35,066 nucleotides of DNA, from IMG/VR virus record IMGVR_UViG_3300035703_000255, positions 1 to 35,066 of that record; one strand, written 5' to 3'. Positions 1,375-29,199 of the stretch are shown here, in pieces. This DNA comes from a virus. Under the pieces are notes generated by a model that searched no databases, was not told where the DNA came from, and worked only from the letters and a program-made list of their open reading frames with translations. The position numbers and the translations under genes were made by a program. Numbering within the stretch: position 1 is the stretch's first letter; each line of letters starts with the position of its first letter.

Positions 1375-1414
1375 TCTTCAGGAATCCTGTCCATGACTTC
1401 CGTTTCTCTCCCCT

Positions 1415-1645
1415 GTGACCACGACCAGCCGCAGGCCGCTGCCCAAGCTGAATGCGCTGAGCCAACTGACGAACGCCAAGGGCGTGCACGGCCTCACCGT
1501 CGGCGGTCTGTGGCGTCTGCGCGACGGGCAGATCGAGGTGCAACGCTTCGGGGGGGTGTGGAGCCGGCCGCCGCTGGCGCAGCTGCAGAAGGGCCCGAGG
1601 GATCTGCTGGTCTGGAACCAGAAGATGGTGCTGGCACCGGGCTAG
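1415..1645 (+). CDS. Small protein of unknown function, overlapping frame upstream of the sigma factor
   Basis: A 76-residue ORF starting at GTG 1415. Its composition looks like a folded protein (for example GLWRLRDGQIEVQRFGGVW), unlike the competing +1-related frame from ATG 1393, which here encodes a low-complexity Arg/Ala/Gly stretch. I therefore prefer this ORF as the real coding frame for 1415-1645. I do not recognise the family. Its TAG stop (1643-1645) abuts two short inverted repeats (1627-1638 and 1645-1661). It sits between terminase and the sigma-like gene; a -1 shift would join it to the sigma frame, but no convincing slippery site was found (GGGCCCG near 1592 is the only in-phase candidate). 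Confidence 0.5.
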   Translation: MTTTSRRPLPKLNALSQLTNAKGVHGLTVGGLWRLRDGQIEVQRFGGVWSRPPLAQLQKGPRDLLVWNQKMVLAPG

Positions 1646-1661
1646 GGAAGCGAGGCTTCCC
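1645..1661 (+). other. Perfect inverted repeat at a stop codon
   Basis: GGGAAGC (1645-1651), loop GAG, GCTTCCC (1655-1661). It begins on the last base of the TAG of the 76-residue ORF. A second inverted repeat, GGTGC-TG-GCACC, lies at 1627-1638. There is no T tract, so it is not a classical terminator; it could separate translation of the two genes or stimulate recoding. Confidence 0.4.
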
Positions 1662-1698
1662 GGCACCTTGGAGCTGGACCAACCCTGAGACCGGCGAG

Positions 1699-2445
1699 GT
1701 GATCGACTCTGAGGCGTTGATCACCGACAACCTGAAGCTGGCGCGCAAATACGCCTGGGGCTGGGCGCGCAAGAGCCAGATGGCCTACGACGACCTGGAG
1801 GCGATCGCCTTCGTCGGTCTGGTGAAGGGCTGCCGCAAGTTCAATCCGGCCAGCGGCTACAAGCTCAGCACCATCGCGGTGCCGTACATCAACGGTGAGA
1901 TCCTTCACCACTTCCGTGATCGGGGCTATGCGGTGAAGTTCCCGGCCCGCTGGCGTGAGGTGATGCCACGCGCCCGACGATTGCTGGAAGCCGGAGAGGA
2001 TCCGCAGGCTGTGTGCGACGCGATCGGCATCGACTCCGGCGAGCTGGAGGAGATGCTCGGTGCCATGGCCGGCACCACCGAGCTCCATGACGAGTTGGTC
2101 GGGGAATCGGAAGCTCAGGTGGAGCTCGATGTGCTGCTGCCGGTGCAGCACCTGGTGAAGACCGCCTGGGAGCGTCTGCATCAGGCCGACCGCAAGCTGC
2201 TGGAGACCTTCTGGAGCGCGCCAGGCCGGCGGCCGGTGTTCCCGACTCAGGCCCTGGCCCAGTTCCTCAACGCTGTGCGGCTGGCTCTGCGCGGTCAGCG
2301 GCTGCCTGAGATCCGCAAGCAGCTGAGCTTGCAGCTCAAGGTCGAGACCGTGAAGCCCGAGCCGAAGCAACGGCGGCCGCGTGGTCGCAATCGCGGGCAG
2401 CTGGAGGTTCAGGCGGTGCAACTTGGGTTGCTTGACTGCGCCTGA
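1699..2445 (+). CDS. Phage-encoded sigma-70 family factor
   Basis: Probably directs RNA polymerase to phage promoters. The segment DDLEAIAFVGLVKGCRKF followed by YKLSTIAVPYINGEI and HHFRDRGYAVKFPARW matches the order of sigma-70 region 2 (core binding, then -10 recognition) as in SigB/SigF-type factors (DL...G..GL..A...F....G..FST.A.P.I.GEI....RD). A region-3-like helical stretch follows (RARRLLEAGEDPQAVCDAIG); region 4 is weak and ends in a basic tail (KQRRPRGRNRGQ). The start is uncertain: GTG 1699 gives 248 residues, while the frame is open back to ATG 1393 (350 residues) through sequence that looks non-coding in this frame. The residues just before 1699 (WSWTNPETGE) look natural, so initiation may be slightly upstream. 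A sigma gene inside the packaging module is unusual and may relate to the repeated element described elsewhere in this window. Confidence 0.75.
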   Translation: MIDSEALITDNLKLARKYAWGWARKSQMAYDDLEAIAFVGLVKGCRKFNPASGYKLSTIAVPYINGEILHHFRDRGYAVKFPARWREVMPRARRLLEAGEDPQAVCDAIGIDSGELEEMLGAMAGTTELHDELVGESEAQVELDVLLPVQHLVKTAWERLHQADRKLLETFWSAPGRRPVFPTQALAQFLNAVRLALRGQRLPEIRKQLSLQLKVETVKPEPKQRRPRGRNRGQLEVQAVQLGLLDCA

Positions 2446-2459
2446 TCGTCAACTGATTT

Positions 2460-4064
2460 GTGACGCCGGAAACCTGGGGCAGCAGGTGGCCGCTGGCGGA
2501 TCTCGGTTTGGAGCAGAAACTCAGCCACTCAACAACCGATCCAGAGCTCCCGAGTTATGAGCACCACGTCCTGCGGGACGTGAAGGGTGACCTGGAGCGC
2601 AACCACGACTGCTGGAACAACCTCAAGGGTCGGCTGGGGCACTACCTGCCCAAAGAGCCCAAGGAGCCTGACGCTGCCTACAAGTTGCGGCTGGGGCGCG
2701 CGAGCTATGTGCCGTTCTTCCGTGATGCGATCACCAGCTTTGCCGGTGTGCTCAGCCGGTTTCAGTTGAAGAACCCTCCCAAGACCTTTGAGGACTCGGT
2801 TGACGACATCGACCGCCGTGGCAACGACCTGACCAGCTTTCTGCAGCAGGCCGATCAGCTGGCCTTGCGGGATGGGGGCTGTCTGATCACGGTCGACATG
2901 CCTGCCGGCGAGGTGGCCACCAACGGCCAGATGCTGATGGAGGGCCGGCGGCCGTATTTGGCCATGGTCGAGCGCAAGGACGTACTGAACTGGCGCGTCC
3001 ACTACGAGGGCGGGCGCGAAGTTCTCGACTGGGTCGTGATCCGCGAGTGGGCCGAGACGCAGGAGGGCCTCTATGGCCTGAAGCTGAAGCCCCGGTATCG
3101 GCTGATCGGGATGTTGGAGGGCCAGGCCTTCTGGCGCGTGCTGGAGATCAGCGAAGGCCGCGCTGGCAAGCCCACCGTGCAGGTGGCGGTTGATGAGAAC
3201 GGTGTGCCGCAGGAAGGCCTCTATCGAGGCCCGGCTGGTCAGCCGTTCCCGGCACCTCCGGTGGTCTGGTACGCCGCCGGTGCGCGTGAGGGCTTTGGCC
3301 AAGGCTCGGTGCGCTTGTCAGGGCTGGCTGAGCTGACGCTGGAACACCTGCGCTGCCGCTCCGATCACGCCGAGCTCAAGCACAAGACCGCCATGCCGGT
3401 GCCGGTGCGCAAGGGTGCGCTGCCGGGCCCTGGTGGCCAGACCCCACCGCTGGTGCTGGGGCCCAACAGCGTGGTGGACCTCGACGCGAACGGGAGCTTC
3501 GGGTTTGCCGAGCCGACCGCGAGCAGCCTGTCGCACCTGGCCGCCGACATCATTCACATCGAGGAGCTGATTCGGCAGCAGACGCTGGCGTTTCTCTATG
3601 GGGAGGGGGGCAACAAGACAGCGACACAGGCCAGCCTGGAGGCGGCTCAAACCGAGGCGTCGTTGCGATCGGTGGCCACTGCCAAGAACAGTGCGGTGCA
3701 GGCTCTGATGCTGCTGTGGTGCAACTTCAGTGGTGAGCGCCTGCCGCAGGATGCTGGGGTAACGATGGCCGCGCACATCTTTGATCGGCCCCTGGCCGCT
3801 CAGGACGTTGCGCAGCTGTCGGCGCTGCAGCAGAACGAGCAGATTTCGACTCGCAGCTTCCTGGAGCAGATCATCAAGGGCGGTGTGCTGACGGTGGTGA
3901 GCTCGGCCGATGTGGAGCTGGAGCGGCTGCAGGAGCAGGTGCCACCGGTGGGCGAGCTGCCCGGGCCGAATGACCTGGCCGGCCTGCTGCCGGAACCGCA
4001 GCAACAGCAGGATGCGATGGACGCCCAGCGTGAGCTGGCAGCGCAGCAGGCTGCTGCTGGCTGA
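2460..4064 (+). CDS. Phage portal protein (DUF4055-like)
   Basis: Forms the dodecameric ring at the capsid vertex through which DNA is packaged and ejected. About 518-534 residues, a normal portal length. The N-terminal part (DAAYKLRLGRASYVPFFRD, then SFAGVLSRF) and central region resemble DUF4055 portals; the C terminus is Gln/Ala-rich and helical. Position immediately after terminase and before a MuF gene supports the call. The GTG at 2460 would translate the repeated GGAAACCTGGGGCA element (2468-2481) as part of the protein. In most other genes the element lies about 28 bases before the start, so a downstream start is plausible; TTG 2508 (LEQKLSHS) or CTG 2493 are the in-frame options. The stop overlaps the next ATG (TGATG). 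Confidence 0.88.
   Translation: MTPETWGSRWPLADLGLEQKLSHSTTDPELPSYEHHVLRDVKGDLERNHDCWNNLKGRLGHYLPKEPKEPDAAYKLRLGRASYVPFFRDAITSFAGVLSRFQLKNPPKTFEDSVDDIDRRGNDLTSFLQQADQLALRDGGCLITVDMPAGEVATNGQMLMEGRRPYLAMVERKDVLNWRVHYEGGREVLDWVVIREWAETQEGLYGLKLKPRYRLIGMLEGQAFWRVLEISEGRAGKPTVQVAVDENGVPQEGLYRGPAGQPFPAPPVVWYAAGAREGFGQGSVRLSGLAELTLEHLRCRSDHAELKHKTAMPVPVRKGALPGPGGQTPPLVLGPNSVVDLDANGSFGFAEPTASSLSHLAADIIHIEELIRQQTLAFLYGEGGNKTATQASLEAAQTEASLRSVATAKNSAVQALMLLWCNFSGERLPQDAGVTMAAHIFDRPLAAQDVAQLSALQQNEQISTRSFLEQIIKGGVLTVVSSADVELERLQEQVPPVGELPGPNDLAGLLPEPQQQQDAMDAQRELAAQQAAAG
2468..2481 (+). promoter_or_regulatory. Recurrent start-associated element, copy 1 (portal)
   Basis: GGAAACCTGGGGCA. It lies inside the 5' end of the longest portal ORF, which suggests that the real portal start is downstream of it. 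Confidence 0.6.
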
Positions 4065-5149
4065 TGGCCCCGAAACGCTCGATCGGTGATGCCAGCCTCA
4101 AGCTGGCGGAGGACTATGCCGCTGCCCTGAAGGCCCTGGAAGCACGCAGTGAGGCTGCGAGCACGACAGCGCTGCGCAAGAGCCTGGCGGGCGTGATGGC
4201 TGAGCTCCGGCGTGCCTATGGGCGCTACGCCGATGCTGCCGAACCGAATGGGACCGACCCCAATGGCCGGCCGTTGCAGCGCAGCGGTGCGGCTGTGATT
4301 CGTGAGTCGTCGGCCCGATTGCGCTCGATCCTGGAAATCAGCCAGGACTTCCTCAGTGACGAAGAGATCAAGGGTTGGCAAAAGCGGCTGGAAGATGACC
4401 TGACCGATGCCGAGCGCCTGGGTGCCGGCCTGAGCCGTGAACTGGCAGGTCTCACCGGTGATGAGGCTGGGTTGCCTTTCAGTGGGAGCAATCGACCGGC
4501 TATCGAGGCGGCGGTGCGCAATGCCGGCGCCTACCTGGCCGCTGATGGCGCTCGGTTCAGGGATCAGATCGCAGTGATCACGGCTGAGGCGGCTGCGCGT
4601 GGCTGGGGTCCCAAGCGGATGGAAGCGCAGATTCGGCGTGCATTGGAAGGCGCTGCTGATCCGACGGGCAAGACAGCACAGATGGGGCTCCGGCAGCGGG
4701 CCGCGCTGATTGCCAGAAGCGAGATCTCAACGGCCTACGTGCAGGGCCAGCTGAACCACGGGCGGCGGCAGGGCTTTGACTACGTGCGCTGGATTGCGGT
4801 GACTGATGAACGGTCCTGCCCGTTCTGCATGTCGCGCCATGGGCTGATCTACCCGGCTAGCTCGATCGTGGTGCCGGCTCACCCCAGGTGCCGGTGCGTG
4901 ACCAGTCCGGTGCCGGCTGAGGCGGTGGAGATGGAGGCCGGGCCCGAGCGGGATGACTTGCTCGATCAAGGCTTCTGGGAGAACAGCAGAGAGGAAGCCA
5001 TCAAGGAGTACGCAGCGGAGAAGAAGATCACGCTGGAGAAGGCGCGCAGTGATGCCAACCGCTACGTGAAGGTGCCAACGGCGAGTGAACGTCGACGGTT
5101 CCCGGGCGTGCTGGAGAGCCTGATGCCGAGCGTGCGGCTCAAAACATGA
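4064..5149 (+). CDS. MuF-type phage head morphogenesis protein
   Basis: A minor head protein of the SPP1 gp7 / Mu gpF family, which binds the portal and enters the virion in small numbers. 361 residues. The diagnostic C-terminal part is clear: RSEISTAYVQGQLNHGR, then CPFC (Cys 252 and 255) and HPRCRC (His 273, Cys 276 and 278), the family's putative metal-binding cluster. The N-terminal half is helical. ATG 4064 overlaps the portal stop, indicating translational coupling. In many phages this family carries a C-terminal effector domain; here the protein ends shortly after the MuF domain with a basic helical tail (EYAAEKKITLEKARSDANRYVK), and effector-like domains occur as separate tagged genes downstream. 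Confidence 0.9.
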   Translation: MAPKRSIGDASLKLAEDYAAALKALEARSEAASTTALRKSLAGVMAELRRAYGRYADAAEPNGTDPNGRPLQRSGAAVIRESSARLRSILEISQDFLSDEEIKGWQKRLEDDLTDAERLGAGLSRELAGLTGDEAGLPFSGSNRPAIEAAVRNAGAYLAADGARFRDQIAVITAEAAARGWGPKRMEAQIRRALEGAADPTGKTAQMGLRQRAALIARSEISTAYVQGQLNHGRRQGFDYVRWIAVTDERSCPFCMSRHGLIYPASSIVVPAHPRCRCVTSPVPAEAVEMEAGPERDDLLDQGFWENSREEAIKEYAAEKKITLEKARSDANRYVKVPTASERRRFPGVLESLMPSVRLKT

Positions 5150-5405: not shown

Positions 5406-5423
5406 GGACCCGGAGGACCTGGC

Positions 5424-5696
5424 ATGCAGAACGAGGTGATGCAGCACCCGTTGTTCCTGCGCAACCCAGAGGGATTAACGGTCGCCCAGTTGAAAGGTCA
5501 GATCAGCCAGTGGCCCGAGTTCGATGAACACGGCAACCCGCTGAAGGTTTATCTGCACTGGGGGTCAGGGATGGCCGTGGCCTGCTGCGAGATGGTGCCC
5601 TTCGATCTCAGTAGTGATGGGGAAGGGGATGGCCACCTGTTGCTCCTCCCCAATGGTGGGTATGAGCTGACGTCAGTGCCGCCGGCGGAAACCTGA
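5424..5696 (+). CDS. Conserved-looking small phage protein, unknown
   Basis: 90 residues from ATG 5424 (MQNEVMQHPLF). ATG 5400 is also in frame but would add only Gly/Pro residues (MGGPGGPG) that encode a GGAGG-rich ribosome-binding region, so 5424 is preferred. It has a mixed alpha/beta composition with one acidic turn (DLSSDGEGDG) followed by HLLLLPNGGYEL. No family recognised. Its last codons (GAA ACC TGA) are formed by the repeated element that precedes the first tagged gene. Confidence 0.65.
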   Translation: MQNEVMQHPLFLRNPEGLTVAQLKGQISQWPEFDEHGNPLKVYLHWGSGMAVACCEMVPFDLSSDGEGDGHLLLLPNGGYELTSVPPAET

Positions 5697-5700
5697 GGCA
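5687..5700 (+). promoter_or_regulatory. Recurrent start-associated element, copy 3
   Basis: Exact consensus GGAAACCTGAGGCA, 29 bases before ATG 5716. It contains the stop codon of the preceding gene (Glu-Thr-stop). Confidence 0.8.
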
Positions 5701-5715
5701 GCGGCCTGGGGCTGG

Positions 5716-6093
5716 ATGGCAGGTAACGGATCGCGCGCTGGTTCGTCTCGCAGCGTCGGCGGGCGTGTCAGTGGTTCGTCAGCCAACGGACAGCAGCAGC
5801 GCTATGCCCAGTTCATCCGCTCCGCTCAGGTGCCTTCCCGTGGGGAGGATTGGGGCGCCAGGTCTCGCGGCCAAGGGAAGCGCAGTGGCGGCATGGTCAG
5901 AGGCGCCATGGCTGCGGTACCGACTGGCATCCGCCGGTACCCGGACTTTCAACGGGCCCGGGGCATGACCCCCACGATCTGGCGTGAAGCGCGGCTGATG
6001 AGCGATGAAGGGAAACGCGCGGTGATCGGGGCCCTTCAGGCTGGCTGGAGCGCTGATCGAGCACTGGGCCTTGGCTACCGCTTCGAGCCCTGA
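5716..6093 (+). CDS. Tagged array protein 1 (MAGNGSR family)
   Basis: 125 residues. The N terminus MAGNGSRAGSSRSVGG is the shared Gly/Ser/Arg tag of the array; the body (about 30-125) is unrelated to the other members by eye. It is strongly basic, with a Gly/Arg-rich middle (ARSRGQGKRSGGM) and a C-terminal helical segment with the pattern WREARLMSDEGKRAVIGAL. No signal peptide, membrane segment or catalytic motif. ATG 5716 is fixed by the tag and by the element 29 bases upstream. Function unknown; a virion-packaged DNA-binding or ejected protein is an inference from the tag, the charge and the location between head and neck genes. Confidence 0.75.
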   Translation: MAGNGSRAGSSRSVGGRVSGSSANGQQQRYAQFIRSAQVPSRGEDWGARSRGQGKRSGGMVRGAMAAVPTGIRRYPDFQRARGMTPTIWREARLMSDEGKRAVIGALQAGWSADRALGLGYRFEP

Positions 6094-6095
6094 CC

Positions 6096-6110
6096 GGAAA
6101 CCTGAGGGCA
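6096..6110 (+). promoter_or_regulatory. Recurrent start-associated element, copy 4
   Basis: GGAAACCTGAGGGCA (one extra G), 29 bases before ATG 6125. A small hairpin CAGC-AGAA-GCTG follows directly. Confidence 0.75.
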
Positions 6111-6124
6111 GCAGAAGCTGATCG

Positions 6125-6463
6125 ATGGCTGGCAACGGTTCGCGTGCAGGCTCAGGGCGTGGCATGGGCGGTGGTGTTACGGCGCCCCCTCGGCCTACCC
6201 CTTTGCAGGTAAGCCGGTTCGTGAAAGCCAGCGAGGTCGCCCGAAGCCGCAACAACCAGGGCGCCATGCGCTCCGGGCCAATGGAGGACCGTGCTGCACG
6301 AACCGTGAACACTCGGATTGGCCGCCCTGGCACTGTCGATGTCAGAAGGGCTGAGCGCACACTTCGGACAGCTCAAAATGCCCGGATGTATCGGGACATG
6401 GGCCTGTTCACGGTTGGCCGGCGGCGCCCAGGGTTCCGGTTCCCTTCAACCCGCCTCTACTGA
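6125..6463 (+). CDS. Tagged array protein 2 (MAGNGSR family)
   Basis: 112 residues, tag MAGNGSRAGSGRGMGG followed by a Pro-rich linker (TAPPRPTP) and a basic body. Little acidic residue content; the C terminus ends FPSTRLY, sharing TRLY and the last 15 bases with array protein 4, so these two resemble each other at both ends. No recognised domain. Separated from its neighbours by only the element and a short spacer. Likely the same role as the rest of the array, whatever that is. Confidence 0.72.
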   Translation: MAGNGSRAGSGRGMGGGVTAPPRPTPLQVSRFVKASEVARSRNNQGAMRSGPMEDRAARTVNTRIGRPGTVDVRRAERTLRTAQNARMYRDMGLFTVGRRRPGFRFPSTRLY

Positions 6464-6465
6464 TC

Positions 6466-6479
6466 GGAAATCTGAGGCA
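6466..6479 (+). promoter_or_regulatory. Recurrent start-associated element, copy 5
   Basis: GGAAATCTGAGGCA, 28 bases before ATG 6494. Its TCTGA can pair with TCAGG at about 6484-6488 (one U-G pair), giving a hairpin before the start. Confidence 0.78.
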
Positions 6480-6493
6480 TTCGCATCAGGGGC

Positions 6494-6874
6494 ATGGCTG
6501 GCAATGGTTCACGGGGCGGTTCCGGTCGCAGCGCTGGGGGCAGTGCAGCGCCCAAGTCGGTCAAGGCCATGGCCTCTGTCAGCCAGGCCGCGTTTGAGCG
6601 CCGGTACCAGCGCGCCGACAAGGACGTGATGGGCGTGCGGCGTTACATCGCCAACTCGGACCGCCCCCGTTACGACCAGGTCGCCAACCAGCGTCGTGAC
6701 ATGCAGACCAACGCCACGTCGCGCAATGCACGGCGGTTCTACGAGGGGCTGAGGACTGATCGGACTACAGGCATGCCGCAATCGATCCAGGCCGGCTTCC
6801 GCAACCGCGAGCGGATGTCGACTGGCACCAAGAAAAAGGCTGGCGCTAAGCGCAGCCGCATGGTCGCGAGCTGA
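6494..6874 (+). CDS. Tagged array protein 3 (MAGNGSR family)
   Basis: 126 residues, tag MAGNGSRGGSGRSAGG. The body is Arg/Gln/Asn-rich and helical (ERRYQRADKDVMGVRRYI, NQRRDMQTNATSRNARRFY) and ends in a Lys-rich tail (GTKKKAGAKRSRM). No recognised catalytic or membrane features. The upstream sequence and first 16 codons are close to those of array protein 4, whereas the bodies diverge. Confidence 0.72.
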   Translation: MAGNGSRGGSGRSAGGSAAPKSVKAMASVSQAAFERRYQRADKDVMGVRRYIANSDRPRYDQVANQRRDMQTNATSRNARRFYEGLRTDRTTGMPQSIQAGFRNRERMSTGTKKKAGAKRSRMVAS

Positions 6875-6888
6875 GGACTGAACTGATC

Positions 6889-6902
6889 GGAAACCTGAGG
6901 TA
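6889..6902 (+). promoter_or_regulatory. Recurrent start-associated element, copy 6
   Basis: GGAAACCTGAGGTA, 28 bases before ATG 6917. CCTGA pairs perfectly with the downstream TCAGG across a 10-base loop. Confidence 0.78.
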
Positions 6903-6916
6903 TTCGCTTCAGGGGC

Positions 6917-7312
6917 ATGGCTGGTAACGGTTCACGGGGTGGTTCCGGCCGGGGCGCAGGTGGTACCGCTGCGCCCCCGCCGCCCAGTGCGATGAAGGTG
7001 AATCTGTTCCAGCAGGCCAGCCGTGAGGCACAGCAGCGCGCAGGCCGAATGGATCAGCGGATTGCAAGACGGATGGATCTGGCCGGAGCAGAAGAGGCCA
7101 CATTCCGGGCCAACTCTGCTGGCCGCAGAGTGGGGCGCAAGCGTTACGTGGCATACCGCAAGGCCTATGCAGGCCTTGGCACTGCAGCGAATGCACGCGA
7201 TCAACGCAGCGGGCGGGTCACGGCCAATGGGATGGCTAGTGCGCGAGCGTTTCGGGTGGCCTCAGGCCGCGCCAGCCGGAGCTATGTCGCCCCGCGCACC
7301 CGCCTCTACTGA
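6917..7312 (+). CDS. Tagged array protein 4 (MAGNGSR family)
   Basis: 131 residues, tag MAGNGSRGGSGRGAGG, then a Pro-rich linker (TAAPPPPSAM) as in array protein 2. The body is Arg/Ala-rich and helical (QRAGRMDQRIARRMDLAGAEE) with almost no acidic tail. The C terminus APRTRLY matches the TRLY end of array protein 2. No known family recognised. Confidence 0.72.
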   Translation: MAGNGSRGGSGRGAGGTAAPPPPSAMKVNLFQQASREAQQRAGRMDQRIARRMDLAGAEEATFRANSAGRRVGRKRYVAYRKAYAGLGTAANARDQRSGRVTANGMASARAFRVASGRASRSYVAPRTRLY

Positions 7313-7322
7313 GGCCTGACCG

Positions 7323-7463
7323 ATGGCATGTGGGGGTAGCCATTCCAAGGGCGGCAAAGGGGGCGGCAAAAAGGCTGCCCCCAAGGGGTCGCACTACATG
7401 CCGGATGGCCGGCTGATGAAGGACTCAGCCCACAAGAAAGGCAAGGGCAAAGGCAAGGGCTGA
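7323..7463 (+). CDS. Lys/Gly-rich 46-residue protein
   Basis: ATG 7323 to TGA 7461-7463: MACGGSHSKGGKGGGKK at the N terminus, PDGRLMKDSAHKKGKGKGKG at the C terminus. It is extremely basic, Gly/Lys/Ser-rich and without hydrophobic core. It begins 10 bases after the previous stop and lacks the GGAAA element, so it may be coupled to array protein 4. The Gly/Ser-rich start vaguely resembles the array tag but is not the same. It could be a degenerate member, or a small DNA-condensing or internal virion protein. Confidence 0.55.
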   Translation: MACGGSHSKGGKGGGKKAAPKGSHYMPDGRLMKDSAHKKGKGKGKG

Positions 7464-7466
7464 GGC

Positions 7467-7480
7467 GGAAACCTGAGCCA
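7467..7480 (+). promoter_or_regulatory. Recurrent start-associated element, copy 7
   Basis: GGAAACCTGAGCCA, 28 bases before ATG 7495; GCCA can pair with TGGC just before the start. Confidence 0.75.
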
Positions 7481-7494
7481 GGCGGGGATTGGCG

Positions 7495-8076
7495 ATGGCT
7501 GGCAATGGCAGCAGGTCTGGCTCGGGCCGTGCAGCTGGTGGCGCAACGGGTTTCGCGAATGGTGTGCGCCGTGTCGCCAAGCCCGGCGGTGGCACCTTTG
7601 GTCTGAGGGCTGGGAATGTGGTCACCCGGTACCGGCCGGCCACACCTCAAGGCCAGAAGCAGCAGCTGGAGCGCCAGATCGGCAAGGCCGTCGGCCAGAT
7701 CTCTGATGCAGTGAAAGGCATGCGCGAACCGCTTGGCCGTGCCAAGAAGATCGGCCTCAGGGTCGACCGGATGGTGGCCCGTGACATCACCAGGGGCAGT
7801 GAGAGCCTTCGTTACAACAGCGGCAAGGTGCTGGAGCGCGGTAAGGCTGTGATCAGACGGCGCGCTGAGCGTGCTGCAGCAGTGGCAGCCCGAGGGCGGG
7901 CCGCAGGCGCCAGGGCCCAGGAGCTCTACGGCCGTCAGCTGGCTGGCTGGCCTCGTGGCAACGATGCCAAGAGCCGTCGCGACAAGTTGCTCGGCCGCAC
8001 CAAGCCCGCCAAGAACAACTACCGGCCTGGCCCGAATAACAGCAACGGCACGCCGAAGCGCCGGCGGTCTAGCTGA
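7495..8076 (+). CDS. Tagged array protein 5 (MAGNGSR family)
   Basis: 193 residues from ATG 7495; an in-frame TTG at 7489 would add only Met-Ala and break the conserved spacing. Tag MAGNGSRSGSGRAAGG. One of the longer bodies: helical, with KQQLERQIGKAVGQISDAV and an Arg/Ala segment (RAERAAAVAARGRAAGARAQ), then a basic, Asn/Pro-rich tail ending KRRRSS. Composition suggests nucleic-acid binding. No recognised domain. Confidence 0.72.
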   Translation: MAGNGSRSGSGRAAGGATGFANGVRRVAKPGGGTFGLRAGNVVTRYRPATPQGQKQQLERQIGKAVGQISDAVKGMREPLGRAKKIGLRVDRMVARDITRGSESLRYNSGKVLERGKAVIRRRAERAAAVAARGRAAGARAQELYGRQLAGWPRGNDAKSRRDKLLGRTKPAKNNYRPGPNNSNGTPKRRRSS

Positions 8077-8080
8077 GGGC

Positions 8081-8094
8081 GGAAATCTGAGGGA
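8081..8094 (+). promoter_or_regulatory. Recurrent start-associated element, copy 8, with Shine-Dalgarno
   Basis: GGAAATCTGAGGGA, 30 bases before ATG 8111. A strong AGGAGG lies separately at 8099-8104, showing that the element is not itself the ribosome-binding site. Confidence 0.75.
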
Positions 8095-8110
8095 GTAGAG
8101 GAGGCTGCCA

Positions 8111-8455
8111 ATGGCCGGGAATGGATCACGCGCTGGCAGCACTCGCAGCAGTGGCGCACGCGCAGTCAGCAAGATCTCGCCATCGCCCATGCGGCTGAAC
8201 CCTGAAGAGAAGGCCTATGCCCGGACGATGTCCGACAGCAAGCTGCGTTCCGATCGAGCCCGGATCGATGCGTTCCGGGCGGCTGGTTTTGATTCCAGCC
8301 TCGACAACATGCTTGCGGTTCGCGGCCGGGTGCTTTCCAAGATCCGCGATCCGTTCACCAGAGCCATCAGGGCCGGCAAGGAGCCTGGCTATGGCCCGGA
8401 GGCAGGCCTTAGAGAGATGCGCCGGCGCATGAAACGAGCGGCCGGCAAGGACTGA
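8111..8455 (+). CDS. Tagged array protein 6 (MAGNGSR family)
   Basis: 114 residues, tag MAGNGSRAGSTRSSGA. The body contains helical stretches (KAYARTMSDSKLRSDRARID and DSSLDNMLAVRGRVLSKI) and a basic C terminus (REMRRRMKRAAGKD). It has a good Shine-Dalgarno (AGGAGG, six bases before the ATG). No recognised family. Confidence 0.72.
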   Translation: MAGNGSRAGSTRSSGARAVSKISPSPMRLNPEEKAYARTMSDSKLRSDRARIDAFRAAGFDSSLDNMLAVRGRVLSKIRDPFTRAIRAGKEPGYGPEAGLREMRRRMKRAAGKD

Positions 8456-8464
8456 GACACAGCC

Positions 8465-8478
8465 GGAAATCTGAGGCA
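8465..8478 (+). promoter_or_regulatory. Recurrent start-associated element, copy 9
   Basis: GGAAATCTGAGGCA, 28 bases before GTG 8493. GGCAG can pair with CTGCC immediately before the start, placing the Shine-Dalgarno AGGAG in the loop. Confidence 0.78.
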
Positions 8479-8492
8479 GTAGGAGCGCTGCC

Positions 8493-9185
8493 GTGGCGGG
8501 GGCTGGTAATCGGCTAGGGGGTAGCAGTCGCAAGTCCGGCGGCCAGGTTGCTGAGAAGCGAATCCAGGTGCGGGGCAACTTCCGGCCGGTCAACACCATG
8601 GCCAGGCCCGTGAGAGGAGAGAACCCCTACAACCGGTTCAGCGGTCACGCTGAGGAAAATCTGGCCACTGCTCAGCGATACCTGGAGCGCCGTGGCTTCA
8701 AGGTCGACGTCTACAACGATCCCTCCGATAAAGCCATCGCACGAGCGGGGCTTGGCATCAAACAGATCAGCCTCAACCGCGCGCATGATGCTGACTACTG
8801 GTCGAATCCACGCTTGAGAGCGATCGACTACCGGAGGATCGGGCACTTGGCGAGCAGCTCGCCGATGGCGACGCTGTATCACGAGATCGGCCACACCCGT
8901 GATCGGATGAGCCTTAATCGGTTCATGTTTGGCGGTGAGAGAGAAGCTCTGGATTGGAAGAGCACCGTTCCGGGAGCTGGAGCCCGGCGGCTGAAACAGG
9001 CATGGCGCAACCGTGATCTGGCACGGCGGGTGAGTATTTACGCCAGCAGCAACCCGGCCGAGTTCAACGCAGAGGTCTATTCAGGCCGTCGCACCGGTCG
9101 CCGTTATGACTTCCAGGTGATGAGGGCCTATGGGCAGTCTTCAGGCCGAAGGGCCCCGAGCCTGAGGTCGCAGCTCAGCCGCTGA
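8493..9185 (+). CDS. Tagged array protein 7: putative zinc metallopeptidase
   Basis: 230 residues, GTG start fixed by the element 28 bases upstream. The tag is a variant, MAGAGNRLGGSSRKSGG. The body has a zincin signature HEIGH (His 130, Glu 131, His 134) in a helix after SSSPMATLY, and a later NPAEFNAEVY segment (Glu 190 and 194) that could give the third zinc ligand. Similar arrangements occur in metallopeptidase domains found at the C termini of phage head proteins and polymorphic toxins, where the cargo is delivered into a cell. Here it is a separate gene with the array tag. Substrate unknown; a role in ejection, in cleaving host proteins or in head maturation is possible. Confidence 0.7.
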   Translation: MAGAGNRLGGSSRKSGGQVAEKRIQVRGNFRPVNTMARPVRGENPYNRFSGHAEENLATAQRYLERRGFKVDVYNDPSDKAIARAGLGIKQISLNRAHDADYWSNPRLRAIDYRRIGHLASSSPMATLYHEIGHTRDRMSLNRFMFGGEREALDWKSTVPGAGARRLKQAWRNRDLARRVSIYASSNPAEFNAEVYSGRRTGRRYDFQVMRAYGQSSGRRAPSLRSQLSR

Positions 9186-9188
9186 ACC

Positions 9189-9202
9189 GGAAATCTGAGG
9201 CA
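9189..9202 (+). promoter_or_regulatory. Recurrent start-associated element, copy 10
   Basis: GGAAATCTGAGGCA, 28 bases before GTG 9217; the same GGCAG/CTGCC pairing as copy 9, with GGGAG in the loop. Confidence 0.78.
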
Positions 9203-9216
9203 GTGGGAGTGCTGCC

Positions 9217-9924
9217 GTGGCGGGGGCTGGCAAACAACGTGGTGGCAGTAGCCGTGGCACCGGTGGCAGCGTTGGTGAATCAGCGGAGGCCAAGCTCCTG
9301 CGCAGCCTGGAGGATGAGATCCGCTACGGGAAGAAAGAAACCGGGATCGTGATCATGCCCGATGGCCGTGTGGTCCGGGTCAAAGGGAAGCAGCACAGCG
9401 TCAGCTTCCCCACTGACTTCTTAAGAACAGTCCGAGGGGGCACGTTGACCCACAACCATCCTGCTGTTGCTGATGGCCGTTCACAAGCTGCTAAGCGAGC
9501 TCAGTTGGCACGGGCTGGCCGGCTTACCAGTGGGTTTAGTGGTGCCGATCTATCGATCGCTGAACGCTTCGGCCTACGCGAGATGCGAGCTGTTGGTGAA
9601 ACGAGGAACTACAGCTACCGGCCCGGAGGTGGCAGGGCTGGAGCGGCATCCGCTTACAAGCTCTACGACCGGCTGAATACGGCGCAAGCCAAGGCGATGT
9701 ATCAGCAGCAAAAGATGAAATGGGCGCGGCGTTTGCAGGCTGCTGAGCGTGCTGGTGACACCGCCAAGGTCGACAGGATCGCCAAAGGTTGGGGGAAGGC
9801 CAAGCAAGCGATTAACGCTGGCTTCACGTACATCGTCGTCAACCAAAACATGCGCAGCCTTAGGCAGGCCGGCTTCGACATCACAGCCCGCCGTGGTAGG
9901 CCGCTGGTGACGGTCAAGCGCTGA
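9217..9924 (+). CDS. Tagged array protein 8: JAMM-like metallopeptidase candidate
   Basis: 235 residues, GTG start, variant tag MAGAGKQRGGSSRGTGG close to array protein 7. The central part has THNHP (His 79 and 81) and SGAD (Ser 108, Asp 111) with an upstream Glu in KETGIVI (Glu 41), the order expected of a JAMM/MPN zinc site (Glu, HxH, SxxD). The HxH-to-Ser distance is longer than the canonical seven residues, so an insertion must be assumed. The following RFGLREMRAVG segment resembles domains seen at the ends of MuF-type head proteins. The C-terminal half is helical and basic. An enzyme-like cargo is likely; the exact activity is not certain. Confidence 0.6.
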   Translation: MAGAGKQRGGSSRGTGGSVGESAEAKLLRSLEDEIRYGKKETGIVIMPDGRVVRVKGKQHSVSFPTDFLRTVRGGTLTHNHPAVADGRSQAAKRAQLARAGRLTSGFSGADLSIAERFGLREMRAVGETRNYSYRPGGGRAGAASAYKLYDRLNTAQAKAMYQQQKMKWARRLQAAERAGDTAKVDRIAKGWGKAKQAINAGFTYIVVNQNMRSLRQAGFDITARRGRPLVTVKR

Positions 9925-9929
9925 TCCTG

Positions 9930-9943
9930 GGAAACCTGAGGCA
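9930..9943 (+). promoter_or_regulatory. Recurrent start-associated element, copy 11
   Basis: GGAAACCTGAGGCA, 28 bases before ATG 9958, an untagged gene. CTGA-GGCA-TCAG forms a tight hairpin. Confidence 0.78.
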
Positions 9944-9957
9944 TCAGACCCGGCGCC

Positions 9958-10440
9958 ATGGCCATTCAGCCCCTGAACGCTCTCTGGCGCGAGTCCGATC
10001 GTGAGGCGATCCGCCAGTACGCCGCCATCCCCGTCACCGAATCGGGGATGCAGCACCTGGTGAGCGCGCTCAACAGCGTCGCCACCCTCAGCCCAGCCAC
10101 CGTGACGCAGTGCCGGGCCTGGATCGATGAGGCCACCACCCTGGAAGCCTCCTACGCCGCCAAGGTGGCAGCCGGTAACGCCCACCTCGACTCAGCCAAG
10201 ACCTACGAGGGCCTGCGGCCCGGCGCGGAACCCACCCGGGAGGACATGCTCCGGCAGGTGGACGTGCTCCAGTACGACATCGAGACCCTCTACAAGGTGC
10301 GGATCACGGCCGGTGACGGCCAGATGGCAACGGCCAACGGTGCCAGCGGCGCGCGGATCGCTGATCTGCAGGTGAAGGTGCTGCAGGCCGTGGGCCTGGG
10401 TGACTACGTGCAGAGCACTGGCGTTCTGATGCGCAGCTGA
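9958..10440 (+). CDS. Head-tail connector candidate, unknown family
   Basis: 160 residues, no array tag, mainly helical (DREAIRQYAAIPVTESGMQ, QCRAWIDEATTLEASYAAKV, REDMLRQVDVLQYDIETLYK). The base composition and codon use look like the structural genes rather than the tagged genes. A small helical protein between the head genes and the neck gene at 11199 would fit a head-completion adaptor, but I do not recognise the family and this is position-based inference. Confidence 0.6.
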   Translation: MAIQPLNALWRESDREAIRQYAAIPVTESGMQHLVSALNSVATLSPATVTQCRAWIDEATTLEASYAAKVAAGNAHLDSAKTYEGLRPGAEPTREDMLRQVDVLQYDIETLYKVRITAGDGQMATANGASGARIADLQVKVLQAVGLGDYVQSTGVLMRS

Positions 10441-10442
10441 GC

Positions 10443-10456
10443 GGAAACCTGAAGCA
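10443..10456 (+). promoter_or_regulatory. Recurrent start-associated element, copy 12, with Shine-Dalgarno
   Basis: GGAAACCTGAAGCA, 29 bases before ATG 10472. A separate AGGAG (10461-10465) sits at normal Shine-Dalgarno distance. Confidence 0.75.
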
Positions 10457-10471
10457 GTAGAGGAGCGATTG

Positions 10472-10720
10472 ATGGCTGGGAATGGCGGCCGTGGGGGCTC
10501 TGGGAGGTCAGCCGGAGGGGTCGCGAAGTCGTCGCCACCCGGGGCCAGGTTTCTGGCGAGGAAGTACGGGCTGACGGGGGCCGAATCAGCCCGTTTGGCC
10601 CGTAACCCGAGCCAGGATCGAATCGTGGCGGCCCATGACCGTTGGCGAGATGCCAATGGCTTGCCAGCTACCAACTCTCCAGTCTCAAGGCGCAAGCTGC
10701 TTGACATGCTGCGCAGCTGA
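10472..10720 (+). CDS. Tagged array protein 9 (MAGNGSR family, shortest)
   Basis: 82 residues from ATG 10472 (the TTG three bases earlier is not needed). The tag MAGNGGRGGSGRSAGG has Gly for Ser at position 6. The short body has two helical patches (RFLARKYGLTGAESARLARN and SPVSRRKLLDMLRS) resembling a small DNA-binding or scaffold-like helix pair, without a recognised family. The stop overlaps the ATG of the next gene (TGATG), so this tagged gene is coupled to an untagged structural gene. Confidence 0.7.
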   Translation: MAGNGGRGGSGRSAGGVAKSSPPGARFLARKYGLTGAESARLARNPSQDRIVAAHDRWRDANGLPATNSPVSRRKLLDMLRS

Positions 10721-11202
10721 TGCCCTCCCCTTTTGCGCCATACGCCAACCTTCGGCTCCGCTTTGAGCGTCGATCGGCTGCGATCCCCAACTTCCGCGAT
10801 GGCAGCCGAGTGCCGACTGAGATCGTGGTGATCGATGCCTGGGCCCGCAGCACATCCGAGGGTGGTGGTGAACAGCAGGCCGGCGGCCTTGCCCTGGGCT
10901 CCTTCGGCCTCTCGGGCTTCCTGGTGCGTTACGCCATCCTCCCGCCCGGATCGGATTGGCTCAGCCTGGGGATGACCTGGGAGTGGACGGAGACCGGTCT
11001 GCGGCCGCAGGGCCTGCAAGCCGGCGACAAGCTCCAGGCCTGCTGGGGTGATCTGAGCGGCCTGCCGGCGGTGGATGACGCCGAGATGGGCTGGCTCACC
11101 CTCAGCCAGATCAGCCACCCCTACGGCAGTGGCGGCATCGGTGCGAAGCTCCGCGCAGCAGCTGGGGACAAGTTTGCCGGCGTCTTCTCCGAGAGCCGAT
11201 GA
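10720..11202 (+). CDS. Neck/head-closure candidate, unknown family
   Basis: 160 residues, no tag, predicted mostly beta (NLRLRFERRSAAIPNF, TEIVVIDAWARS, GMTWEWTETGL) with a Gly-rich C terminus. ATG overlaps the preceding stop and its own stop overlaps the start of the gp10-like gene, so it is in a coupled neck block. Position and fold suggest a stopper or head-closure role; inference only. Confidence 0.6.
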   Translation: MPSPFAPYANLRLRFERRSAAIPNFRDGSRVPTEIVVIDAWARSTSEGGGEQQAGGLALGSFGLSGFLVRYAILPPGSDWLSLGMTWEWTETGLRPQGLQAGDKLQACWGDLSGLPAVDDAEMGWLTLSQISHPYGSGGIGAKLRAAAGDKFAGVFSESR

Positions 11203-11654
11203 GCAAGTTCACGGTCAAGTTCAACGTTCCCCTGTCGCAGCGAGCGGAAGAGGCCTCGATCACGGCAGCCAAGGTGGTGTTTGCCGAGCTCAATGGCCGC
11301 TTCCAGGCCGCGATCGGCTCCAAGGTGTGGAGCTGGCCCCGGCAGACCGTGCGCAGCAACGGCCGCAGCGTGAGCAGTCCGCGCACGATCGTCGATACCG
11401 GTGTTCTGCGTCAGAGCAACAACTTCCAGGTGAACGGCTACGAGGGGACGTTCCGCTGGACCACTAACTACGCCTCGTTCGTGCATGAGGGGGCCACGAT
11501 CAAGCCATACGGCAACCAGAAGGCCAAGTCGGTGTACCTGCCGCCTCGGCCCTGGACGTCGGCTGTGCTCGGCACCGAGCAGATTTCAGGCGTGGAGCCG
11601 TATGACTTCGCGGCGCGGTTCAAGGACGTCTGGCTGAAAGCCCTGAAGCTCTGA
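11199..11654 (+). CDS. HK97 gp10-like neck (tail completion) protein
   Basis: 151 residues. The features IVDTGVLRQSNNF, then WTTNYASFVHEG and LPPRPWTSAV are characteristic of the HK97 gp10 / SPP1 gp16-16.1 neck family: a helical N terminus, a DTG.LR motif, an aromatic YA..VH.G strand and a Pro-Arg-Pro-Trp segment. It joins the head connector to the tail. It overlaps the previous gene by four bases (ATGA), consistent with coupled translation. Confidence 0.75.
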   Translation: MSKFTVKFNVPLSQRAEEASITAAKVVFAELNGRFQAAIGSKVWSWPRQTVRSNGRSVSSPRTIVDTGVLRQSNNFQVNGYEGTFRWTTNYASFVHEGATIKPYGNQKAKSVYLPPRPWTSAVLGTEQISGVEPYDFAARFKDVWLKALKL

Positions 11655-11657
11655 GCG

Positions 11658-11671
11658 GGAAACCTGAGGCA
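11658..11671 (+). promoter_or_regulatory. Recurrent start-associated element, copy 13
   Basis: Exact GGAAACCTGAGGCA, 28 bases before ATG 11686, part of the perfect hairpin annotated next. Confidence 0.82.
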
Positions 11672-11685
11672 TTGGCGTCAGGTTT
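11660..11685 (+). promoter_or_regulatory. Perfect 8-bp hairpin ending at the start codon
   Basis: AAACCTGA (11660-11667), 10-base loop, TCAGGTTT (11678-11685), immediately followed by ATG 11686. The left arm is the recurrent element. It is the longest version of the pairing seen in copies 5, 6 and 11. Confidence 0.7.
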
Positions 11686-12174
11686 ATGGCTGGCAACGGC
11701 TCTCGTGGGGGCAGCAGCCGCAGCAGTGGCGGCACGACCAGCGCAGCGCCGAAGGCTGTCAAGGGGCCCCAGAAGGTCGACTTCAACGGTGCCATGCGCA
11801 TCGCGGCCGACCAGGTGCGCGCCGAAGGTCGACTGCGCGCGAACCAGTATTCGTTCAACGGCAATGGCGCCTGGGCGCAAAGCCGTGATCGGTATTACGC
11901 CAAGTCCACCACAGAAGGTCTGGCGCGCGAGGCAGTGAGAGGCCGGTTGAGCGAGTACCGGCGCATTCAGGCCCAATCACGGTTCCCCAACTACAACCAG
12001 GCAGCAACGCCGGAATCGGCGGCCCGATACAGATCCGCATTGCCCGGCAAGCGCGCTGAGGTAATGCGCGCCGTCAGGACAGCACGTGCATTCCGGCCCC
12101 GCTATCTCGGCGAGCTGCAGCAGCGCTATGAAGCCCGGCAGAGGCAGAACGCATCGCGGCGTTCGAGGCGTTGA
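11686..12174 (+). CDS. Tagged array protein 10 (MAGNGSR family)
   Basis: 162 residues, tag MAGNGSRGGSSRSSGG, then a short linker (TTSAAPKAVKG) and a long Arg/Ala/Gln/Tyr-rich body (RIAADQVRAEGRLRANQYSF, LSEYRRIQAQSRFPNYNQ) ending in an Arg-rich tail (ARQRQNASRRSRR). Separated from the rest of the array by three untagged neck genes, which shows that tagged genes are inserted among structural genes rather than forming one block. No recognised domain. Confidence 0.72.
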   Translation: MAGNGSRGGSSRSSGGTTSAAPKAVKGPQKVDFNGAMRIAADQVRAEGRLRANQYSFNGNGAWAQSRDRYYAKSTTEGLAREAVRGRLSEYRRIQAQSRFPNYNQAATPESAARYRSALPGKRAEVMRAVRTARAFRPRYLGELQQRYEARQRQNASRRSRR

Positions 12175-23619: not shown

Positions 23620-26394
23620 ATGACCCCGCCAATCGATCCCGCAAGCTGGGTTCGCCTCCCGGTCCCGCTGACGGGTCTGCAGCAGGTATCAGGCGCAGTC
23701 GACAACGAAACCTTCGCGCCAGCCAACACAGTCGCCATCCCGGCGGATCTGGATGAGGACGATCCGAGCGCATTTTTCAGAACGCTGCCCTCTGAGGACG
23801 ATGACGACCTAGTCACGGATCAAGTCTTCACAAAGCCGGTTGAGCCCTACGCGCTCAAGCCCGACACGTCGCTGCGTTCACGATCAAAGCTGCGGGTTTA
23901 CTTCTATCAGTACAGCCTCGATGCAGGCCAGTACGAGGAAGAGCTGCAGACGAGGGCAGGGGCTACAGCAGCTGTCTACACGGTGCCTGTCGACTACCTG
24001 GCCAGTTACGCCAGGGCATTTACAGAGATCAACGACCAGCCGCCCCCTCCGCCTGAGCCCTTGACGGTAGTGGAGGGCAGTGCAGCACCGGTGCTTGGGG
24101 CTGGCGCCGTGGCCTCGCTGACGGCTCTGGATGAGTACCAGGTCAAGCACTGGGAGCCAACAGCGGGCTACTGGGACGACGAGGAAGGCTTCTCCTTCCT
24201 GCTCAAGGACTGGCTGACGCTCAGTGGCACGTCTTACTACCGAGGGCTGCTGACCACCAACGGCTACGTGGCGGTGCCTGAGACCGCAGCGGTCACCTAT
24301 TCGCCAAGCCTGACCAACCCGGCCAACCCCAAGCTGCTGGTGGGCGCTGGTGACTATGAAGCGCGGTTGATCGCCGTGCAGCAGGGCACCAACTATGTCC
24401 GGCTGCGCACCGAGCTCAGGCCCTACGGGGGCGCCGCTGGTGACCCCGCAACGGTGGTGTGGGAGGCCACGTTCTTCCATCCGATGCAGGACGGCACGCA
24501 GCTGATCGAAGTGCGCATCGGCTCGGTGGTTACGGCTGGGCTGGAGTCGAGCGACCTCACGCTGGCCAGCGCCAGCACTGCCTATGCCACAGCGACCCTG
24601 ACGGCCAACACCAGCTACGTCTTTGTCGGTGACGCCACCGGCAGTCAATGGGTGGTGAACAGCGGCTACCACGTCGACAACGCAACCGGCGTCTATGCCC
24701 ACGACATCAGCAGGGCCAGCCTGGCGCGGCTTGTGGTGGAGGCCGAGCTCAGCGTGTCGGCGGTGGTGAAGGCAGGGATCGAGGAGAAACCCACGCAGTT
24801 CTTCACGGCGCTGAGCTTTCAGGGCAACACAACCGCTCGGACCATCAGCACCCCGAACGTGTATCCAGCCTTCATCATCCACAAGGCAGGGACGGGCTAT
24901 CAGCTCTACGCCTGGTTTGGCGCATCAGTCTTCAACAGAGCTGGCCAGGCAACAGACGTCAATGGCGGCGCCGAGAACGCGCCCAAATACGCAAGTCTTG
25001 GCTACGTCTTCGACTACTCAGCTTCTGTTGTCGCACAAGGCTTTACTGAATATGGCCTTGGTTACTACAAGCTCGGCACTGATGCCAACGTCAACATCAA
25101 CACAAGCGGCACCTGCAACAACATCTTCTCCTGGGTGCTAGGTGGCAATGGAGCCCCACGGCTGAACACGGCAGGCAGCTTGAGGGGAGGTGTTGACTGC
25201 TGGAACGTCACGAGCAACTGGGGCTTCTCCACGTTTGCCTGGGTGGGCAAGCCAGCAGCGGACTATAACGACGCCATCGGCATGCCTGTTGGCCACGGCC
25301 TTAGAGACCGCGAAGGGAACAAGATCAAGCCGCAGATCGTTTTTGCCAAGCGCTATTACGTCAACAACAACCTCAGGAACCCGATCAGCGTTGCCGGCGA
25401 GGTTCTGGGCGCCGACATCGATCTAGGAGAGGTGTGGGGTTCCAGCTGGGCTGGCTACAAGGGCAACTACTACATGGAGCTGGCCAGGAAGGATTCCTTC
25501 GGCAACACCGGCGTCAACCCTGCCTACCTGACGGCCGATTATCTCAACTACAACTACAACAACTACTACAAGGCAAAAGTCGCAGACGAAGACTGCGTCT
25601 ACATGAACAACAACGGCAAAGGCAGCCCCAACAGCACGATGATCGGCTGGGCCTTCGCCAACGTCCCTGGCTCCTGCAAGATCGGGCGCGTCACGTCCCA
25701 GGGCGCTACGACCACTGCGGTGATCACAGGCTTCCCGGTGCGGATGGTGATCATGAAGTGCATCACCGCTTCGTCATCCTGGCTGCTGTTCGGTCAGCAG
25801 ACGTGCCTGGCCACCGGTGCGTTTGAGATCCACACGAACGCCGTCGCCTTCAGCACAACCATTGCCTCAGTCACGTTCACGGGGGCCGGTTTCGACTGGG
25901 CCAACAAGCTCAGCGACGAGGGGCAGGAGTGGCTCTACATCGCCGTGGGCGGCTACGGCCCTGATGAGGTGATCTACGCCGCCTACCTGGAGCCAGGCGC
26001 CTTCGGGGCGACGGGCATCGCAGCCGGCAGCAAGCGCAACCGGATCATGGCCGCTGAGCCCGGCGCCGTTGAGGTCGGGGAGGTTCCGGTAGTGCTGGCC
26101 TACAACCGAAGCCCACTGGCCGCAGAGGGCGCTGAGGTGAGCGTTGGCGGGCAGGAGGCGATCCTCTGGAAGGGCCGAGCCATTGATGCAGTTGCCGCCG
26201 AGGTCGCCCTGGAAGGCCAGGCCGCTGCGCTGTTCAGGTCGGCCATCATCCCGTTGACGACCGAGCCGGCGCAGATGCTGCTGACCGGGCAGGCAGCACT
26301 GCTGGCCGGCCCAGGCGGCGACTACTGGACCAACTGGGGCGATCAGCACTACCTCTGGGTGGCGGCTTACCTGCCTGATTCCTGGGCCAGCTAG
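23620..26394 (+). CDS. Large tail fibre/tip protein
   Basis: 924 residues, starting four bases after the previous stop. The N-terminal 150 residues are Asp/Glu/Pro-rich (DEDDPSAFFRTLPSEDDDD) and may attach to the hub. The middle and C-terminal part is beta-rich, with a block (GVDCWNVTSNWGFSTFAWVG, PQIVFAKRYY, SSWLLFGQQTC, EWLYIAVGGYGPDEV) resembling the concanavalin/DUF7483-like domains of phage tail fibres. Its probable role is host-surface recognition. Tyr/Asn-rich runs (NYNYNNYYKAKV) are typical of fibre knobs. Confidence 0.65.
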   Translation: MTPPIDPASWVRLPVPLTGLQQVSGAVDNETFAPANTVAIPADLDEDDPSAFFRTLPSEDDDDLVTDQVFTKPVEPYALKPDTSLRSRSKLRVYFYQYSLDAGQYEEELQTRAGATAAVYTVPVDYLASYARAFTEINDQPPPPPEPLTVVEGSAAPVLGAGAVASLTALDEYQVKHWEPTAGYWDDEEGFSFLLKDWLTLSGTSYYRGLLTTNGYVAVPETAAVTYSPSLTNPANPKLLVGAGDYEARLIAVQQGTNYVRLRTELRPYGGAAGDPATVVWEATFFHPMQDGTQLIEVRIGSVVTAGLESSDLTLASASTAYATATLTANTSYVFVGDATGSQWVVNSGYHVDNATGVYAHDISRASLARLVVEAELSVSAVVKAGIEEKPTQFFTALSFQGNTTARTISTPNVYPAFIIHKAGTGYQLYAWFGASVFNRAGQATDVNGGAENAPKYASLGYVFDYSASVVAQGFTEYGLGYYKLGTDANVNINTSGTCNNIFSWVLGGNGAPRLNTAGSLRGGVDCWNVTSNWGFSTFAWVGKPAADYNDAIGMPVGHGLRDREGNKIKPQIVFAKRYYVNNNLRNPISVAGEVLGADIDLGEVWGSSWAGYKGNYYMELARKDSFGNTGVNPAYLTADYLNYNYNNYYKAKVADEDCVYMNNNGKGSPNSTMIGWAFANVPGSCKIGRVTSQGATTTAVITGFPVRMVIMKCITASSSWLLFGQQTCLATGAFEIHTNAVAFSTTIASVTFTGAGFDWANKLSDEGQEWLYIAVGGYGPDEVIYAAYLEPGAFGATGIAAGSKRNRIMAAEPGAVEVGEVPVVLAYNRSPLAAEGAEVSVGGQEAILWKGRAIDAVAAEVALEGQAAALFRSAIIPLTTEPAQMLLTGQAALLAGPGGDYWTNWGDQHYLWVAAYLPDSWAS

Positions 26395-26407
26395 GAAAGC
26401 TGGGGCA
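26394..26407 (+). promoter_or_regulatory. Recurrent start-associated element, copy 16
   Basis: GGAAAGCTGGGGCA, 28 bases before ATG 26422. GGAA-AGC can pair with GCT-g-TTCC immediately before the ATG. The element overlaps the TAG stop of the fibre gene. Confidence 0.75.
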
Positions 26408-29197: not shown

Positions 29198-29199
29198 CG

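Follow-up and report, generated by a model that had tools for sequence, protein, structure and literature searches.

Analysis of the 35,066-base virus record IMGVR_UViG_3300035703_000255 (the whole stretch, called the window here) revealed ten open reading frames (ORFs) whose products of 82-235 residues begin with the same N-terminal tag, MAG[N/A]Gx[R/Q]xG, followed by differing bodies. They lie in the gene order terminase, sigma factor, portal, MuF, tagged genes, neck, tail, scaffold and major capsid protein (MCP) (Table 1). An earlier note on this DNA had taken the tag for a targeting sequence and the bodies for exchangeable cargo; the starts, lengths and basicity that it gave for the ten proteins are borne out, with an isoelectric point (pI) above 11 in every case (11.2-12). 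The closest relative, IMGVR_UViG_3300035703_000127 (hereafter G001), with a MuF protein 70% and a portal about 80% identical to those of the window, contains 13 tagged ORFs in two clusters, one in the interval between MuF and a neck gene and the other upstream of the terminase region. Both contigs are fragments, and the 23 tagged ORFs are all the above-threshold matches to a position-specific tag score applied at every start codon on both strands.

Table 1. Tagged genes, 14-base elements and other features of the window.
Feature	Position	Strand	Remarks
Tagged gene 1	5716..6093	+	125 residues, pI 11.8
Tagged gene 2	6125..6463	+	112 residues; body 81% identical to G001 28716, 32% to gene 6917
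Tagged gene 3	6494..6874	+	126 residues; body 74% identical to G001 28282
Tagged gene 4	6917..7312	+	131 residues
Tagged gene 5	7495..8076	+	193 residues; body akin to G001 30685 and to RDxxGRF-tagged proteins in relatives L225, L251, L260 and L264
Tagged gene 6	8111..8455	+	114 residues; body 78% identical to G001 27893
Tagged gene 7	8493..9185	+	230 residues, GTG start, HEIGH metallopeptidase-like body
Tagged gene 8	9217..9924	+	235 residues, GTG start, JAMM/MPN-like body
Tagged gene 9	10472..10720	+	82 residues, among neck genes
Tagged gene 10	11686..12174	+	162 residues, among neck genes
14-base element, first copy	5687..5700	+	GGAAAYCTGAGGCA
14-base element, further copies	starts at 6096, 6466, 6889, 7467, 8081, 8465, 9189, 9930, 10443, 11658		28-30 bases ahead of start codons
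Element before untagged neck gene 9958	9930..9943	+	28-base spacing; same in G001
Variant element before untagged tail gene 26422	26394..26407	+	28-base spacing
Sigma-70 region 2 protein	1393..2445	+	between terminase and portal
Portal protein	2508..4064	+	
MuF-type minor head protein	4064..5149	+	361 residues, without effector extension
Untagged acidic neck-region gene	9958..10440	+	kept in both phages (window and G001)
Head scaffolding protein	31720..32586 as listed	+	true start probably GTG 30 bases after a 14-base element
MCP	32786..33709	+	

Comparison of the 23 tagged genes established that selection acts on the tag as protein. The conservation lies in the amino acids and does not reflect recent DNA duplication, because third codon positions are near saturation (mean entropy over residues 2-16 of 0.77, 0.64 and 1.71 bits at codon positions 1, 2 and 3, respectively) and the serine positions mix TCN and AGY codons; A2, G3, N4, R7, G9 and R12 are conserved in a fixed register. 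The shared 5' ends could nevertheless have arisen when the leader and the gene start were copied locally, by duplication or gene conversion, with a functionless tag, and two comparisons favour such copying: genes 8493 and 9217, which are neighbours, have leaders that are 93% identical in DNA and nearly the same tag on unrelated bodies, and the adjacent genes 6494 and 6917 are, in DNA, 90% identical in the leader and 81% in the tag while their bodies lack protein similarity. The saturated third positions behind conserved residues largely refute this explanation, which we regard as very improbable also in view of the maintenance of the tag in 23 genes of two genomes and of the comparable, though not identical, tag that relatives have (see below). 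The narrower proposal that the tag is a mere recent duplication is ruled out by the codon pattern.

The bodies follow a different course from the tags. An all-against-all comparison of the bodies of the window with those of G001 yielded three clear orthologous pairs (74-81% amino acid identity, 70-77% nucleotide identity), one weak pair (29%) and otherwise unlike sequences, and the only similarity within the window was between the paralogous bodies of genes 6125 and 6917 (32% identity, E 5e-5). The earlier description of the bodies as unrelated thus holds for most of them but fails for this pair. Tags on the four pairs with shared bodies had mean identities of 0.60 (nucleotide) and 0.73 (amino acid), equal to those of tags on unrelated bodies (0.58 and 0.73); these values, together with the shared leaders on unrelated bodies, indicate that tag and body evolve separately.

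The 14-base element that the earlier note placed before each tagged gene is indeed present there, and its occurrence is non-random (14 matches compared to 0.63 expected, with 0 of 100 shuffles reaching this), but two of its copies (7467 and 10443) are variants, and untagged genes have it too, including the scaffold, the portal and gene 14843. Relatives that use another tag have a diverged element (GGGAAAACTGCGGCA and similar) at the same distance from differently tagged genes, and also before portal, neck and tail genes. Since the element is found ahead of neck, portal, scaffold and tail genes, and relatives with the other tag keep it, its membership of the tag system is ruled out. The distribution of GGAAAYCTGAGG suggests that it serves the late genes of this phage group as a leader or promoter, and, if it is a promoter, the phage sigma factor is possibly its reader. 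The combination of a sigma-70 region 2 gene and a repeated 14-base leader suggests a phage-specific late promoter with a single conserved box. A near-perfect copy at 14830-14843 departs from the usual 28-30-base spacing in that it overlaps with the start of gene 14843 at its initiation codon (GGAAACCTGGGGCATG), an arrangement that is kept in G001.

The earlier note had named absence of the tag from any related phage as an observation that would count against its proposal; the same tag was found in G001, and another tag occupies the locus in many relatives. The MAGNGSR tag was absent from the 80 portal relatives that we fetched, except G001, and the matches listed in scans with the tag pattern (71 in genome_contigs and 72 in viral_contigs) were, beyond G001, chance frames or unrelated starts. 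Many of these relatives have at the corresponding locus one to four genes with a different shared N-terminus, [R/K]xYxRDxxGRFAS, again followed by different bodies. This RDxxGRFA tag was present on 37 of the 1737 ORFs in the relatives' loci, always within residues 4-19 and never internally.

Homologous bodies occur behind both tags. Five body families, identified by tblastn with bodies from the window and G001, lay in an RDxxGRF-tagged ORF in 15 of 15 cases in portal-matched relatives, a count that overstates independence because the relatives share ancestry; with one event per body family it becomes five of five (about 3e-7 by residues covered). The body of gene 8493 was found behind RDxxGRFA in eight ORFs of relatives, with 33-43% identity in the RDxxGRF-tagged ORFs and 46% in L223, a relative itself fetched by this body; identities for the other families were up to 57% (30685/7495), and 61% (10654), 36% (30235) and 41% (9370). 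In some relatives the module is found inside a long mosaic protein with one tag for several modules, whereas the window has one tag per module. The RDxxGRF-tagged gene directly after the portal was 94-100% identical over residues 1-53 in six phages and mosaic in the remainder, these residues being the sole part shared between L234 and L249, a pattern like that of an invariable delivery end to which different cargo is attached. Comparison thus establishes that tags are swapped on homologous bodies, that the cargo is mosaic and that the genes lie in the head module.

The RDxxGRFA tag extends well beyond the fetched relatives. Such starts on very basic proteins are common in viral contigs: at least 112 frame-true RDxxGRFA ORFs, some of them background, were listed in at least 90 loci among L304-L423 (IMG/VR), and at least 21 of these loci had two or more. 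The last viral scan, which used a DNA pattern chosen independently of head genes, gave at least about 100 frame-true ORFs beyond those of the fetched relatives, nearly all with products of pI near 12. Among the matches listed, the main classes of neighbours were MuF or minor head genes (20 of 75) and portal genes (18 of 75). The long RDxxGRFA N-terminus had no match in named phages, and neither this motif nor tagged head cargo outside T4 was found in the literature, as far as our incomplete coverage extends. RDxxGRFA is therefore a common, apparently undescribed tag.

Basicity is a feature of both groups: pI exceeds 11 in all 23 MAGNGSR proteins and in the 38 listed RDxxGRFA proteins, compared to mostly 4-6 for untagged proteins. 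This raises the alternative that the tag is a general RGG/RG-like extension that binds nucleic acid and that these basic late proteins reach the head, if ever, via the DNA and with no specific receptor. Although the Gly/Ser/Arg composition of the tag and the low confidence of structure prediction over the first 20 residues of the modelled proteins (predicted local distance difference test, pLDDT, about 35-55) fit this explanation, a further basic tag would add little to bodies that are already very basic, the conservation is position specific in a fixed register, and the relatives substitute a different, equally position-fixed motif. We consider this alternative unlikely.

Two bodies had been called metallopeptidase-like in the earlier note, and motifs support both assignments: gene 8493 encodes HEIGH, and gene 9217 the HNHP..SxxD signature of JAMM proteins. 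Residues E41, H79, H81, S108 and D111 of the JAMM motif in the 9217 body were invariant in 30 sequences, and the HExxH motif of the 8493 body was kept in nine of nine aligned sequences. In a fold search with the 9217 model the first 19 rows were of JAMM/MPN type, the best match being P. furiosus JAMM1 (5lda; Z 7.1, under 8; root-mean-square deviation 3.5 over 105 aligned residues), and the structural neighbours included Cap3 and BubCD; Foldseek returned no match in the PDB at E below 0.001. One could speculate from the model that this JAMM-like protein acts against ubiquitin-like conjugation in host defence.

In other phages, both of these bodies are found joined to head proteins. For 9217 an alignment was required, as the single sequence gave no match in viral contigs; of 32 members of the JAMM-like domain family scanned by Pfam, 15 were MuF, three minor capsid and one portal proteins, and a gut phage MuF protein matched the 9217 body with E 1e-11. 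The 8493 body has a match in Halorubrum virus BLv36, at the C-terminal end of a portal of Mu type, and the MuF protein of cyanophage PSS2 contains a fused zeta-toxin domain. Such fusions bear on a further alternative, in which the tagged proteins are not packaged but act inside the cell late in infection, as assembly helpers, DNA condensers or host-takeover factors, and the tag marks some other common fate, for example complex formation or turnover. The lack of a known domain in most bodies would be compatible with this, but two bodies are elsewhere covalent parts of head proteins (MuF and portal), portal and MuF adjacency recurs in loci sampled irrespective of head genes, and the tag is swapped on the same bodies. 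This alternative appears slightly more doubtful than nucleic-acid binding.

The explanation we favour, and consider probable on the comparative evidence, is that the tag directs each polypeptide that bears it to the head and that the bodies are exchangeable cargo loaded there. Two parts of the interpretation in the earlier note stand: bodies are exchanged while the N-terminus is conserved (homologous bodies have another tag or are fused to MuF or portal), and the locus is the head module. Packaging, the receptor, the number of copies, ejection and any function in the host are parts of the model that we infer. The array would encode late-expressed, very basic, DNA-compatible proteins for loading into the phage head, with the probably disordered 16-residue N-terminus required once per polypeptide as a targeting sequence. 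A head component would recognize the tag, and the scaffold (31720..32586), the portal and MuF are candidate receptors. The bodies, some of them putative enzymes (JAMM-like and HExxH metallopeptidase-like), would be exchangeable modules that probably enter the host with the DNA. The relatives carry these modules behind RDxxGRFA, often several of them in one polypeptide, and elsewhere the JAMM-like and HExxH modules are joined directly to MuF or portal proteins.

Several observations weigh against head targeting. Most bodies lack a recognized domain: scans with Pfam, PHROGs and PADLOC gave nothing useful, and a sequence search of solved structures returned low-complexity or chance matches alone. 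The model of 8493, a putative zincin, has a mean pLDDT of 60.6 and gave only weak matches in the fold search, with Z 2.2-2.6 for HtpX and selecase. Among the matches listed, the exact MAGNGSR tag occurred in two contigs only, and it was lacking in the regions read of the named cyanophages PSS2, S-CRES1 and S-CBS2. The virus itself is cyanophage-like: its MCP shares 44-51% identity with the MCPs of PSS2 and S-CRES1-3, and its portal about 38-40% with the portals of S-CBS2, PSS2 and S-CRES1-3. Virion proteomics was found for no phage with either tag. The tag itself is of low complexity (Gly/Ser/Arg) and could merely bind nucleic acid, and a T4-type cleavage signal is absent, with no Glu in residues 1-16 of 23 of 23 tags.

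A broader proposal, for which we see even chances, is that tailed phages outside the T4 group load modular effectors by short, lineage-specific, swappable N-terminal tags, with modules that are fused to MuF or portal, fused to one another or split. The tag types would be MAGNGSRxGSxR in the window and RDxxGRFA widely in relatives, possibly with FNPYHxxGRFT and CGxxCIP motifs elsewhere. In L193, the motif KFNPYHxxxGRFT is present in four ORFs with different bodies just past a MuF-like gene (3708-4538, 4758-5540, 5541-6599 and 7583-9517); in the last it is internal, ahead of a second JAMM-like HNHP domain. The motif KxxxQCGDxCIPKxxKC is found near the N-terminus or internally in L182 (Aphanizomenon phage CL131 gp044, gp047 and gp048), L188, L197, L200 and L201, in proteins with differing bodies (JAMM-like, hydrolase-like) from the head-tail region of a filamentous-cyanobacterial phage, and is possibly a further tag type.

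Other features of the two contigs are recorded here. A tiny untagged Gly/Lys-rich ORF (MACGGSHSKGGKGGGKKAAPKG...) is located within the array at 7323-7463, and a gene that resembles, by eye, an IS256-type transposase lies about 1 kb ahead of the second tagged cluster in IMGVR_UViG_3300035703_000127 (L010, reversed contig 6125-7390). In the window as in G001, the scaffold and major capsid genes (31720-33709) lie behind the tail fibre genes, distant from portal and MuF. Three adjacent alike genes of about 135 residues each in the tail fibre region (28383-29607) are, by eye, likely paralogs.

If head targeting is correct, the T4 idea of a head-addressing tag extends to a large unrelated phage group, and very basic late proteins with an RDxxGRFA or MAGNGSR start beside portal and MuF would provide a signature for injected phage proteins that lack recognizable domains. 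The relatives would then offer a natural series of tag-cargo swaps for studying protein loading into the phage head, and the tags a possible new peptide for packaging chosen proteins in phage particles.

Comparison with known systems shows that such a design has been described, contrary to the earlier note, which knew of none: the T4 internal proteins (PMC3012670, PMC9026906). These are a highly diverse set with just a short N-terminal capsid targeting sequence in common (PMC3012670), of which a 10-residue N-terminus is enough for incorporation (PMC9026906), and after ejection the cargo can act against the defences of the host (PMC3012670, PMC9026906). In IPI, IPII, IPIII and Alt, as in the window, diverse basic proteins have one short N-terminal sequence (10-19 residues in T4), which in T4 directs them into the prohead; the window tags match this as a shared short N-terminus on mostly unrelated, small basic proteins. 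In contrast to T4, the capsid family and locus are different, there are up to 10-13 cargo genes, the tag varies between related phages, and the cargo is fused or split. We do not claim homology to T4, because the tag lacks the processing Glu and no sequence relation was found.

The MuF polymorphic toxins of temperate phages likewise combine a constant head-associated N-terminus with a variable C-terminal effector in a portal-adjacent gene (PMC5576092), and the JAMM-like body of 9217 alone is a MuF C-terminal domain elsewhere. In the window, however, none of the ten tagged proteins matches MuF, the cargo is encoded by separate genes, and the MuF protein of this phage lacks an effector extension. 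A third comparison is with the polyvalent proteins of phages and conjugative elements, which are multi-module, lie in virion gene contexts and are predicted to be injected (PMC5512222); relatives with several modules per RDxxGRFA tag may resemble them. The window differs in that its modules are separate tagged polypeptides without a recognized polyvalent domain, and in the RDxxGRFA modular mosaics of relatives no Pfam domain was recognized. In the PeSL mobile regulatory cassettes of T4, shuffled genes are accompanied by a regulatory element that is repeated upstream, whereas the window element is the leader of many late genes, tagged or untagged. In sum, the T4-like targeting principle is already known, and tag swapping, split versus fused cargo and the RDxxGRFA tag are new here.

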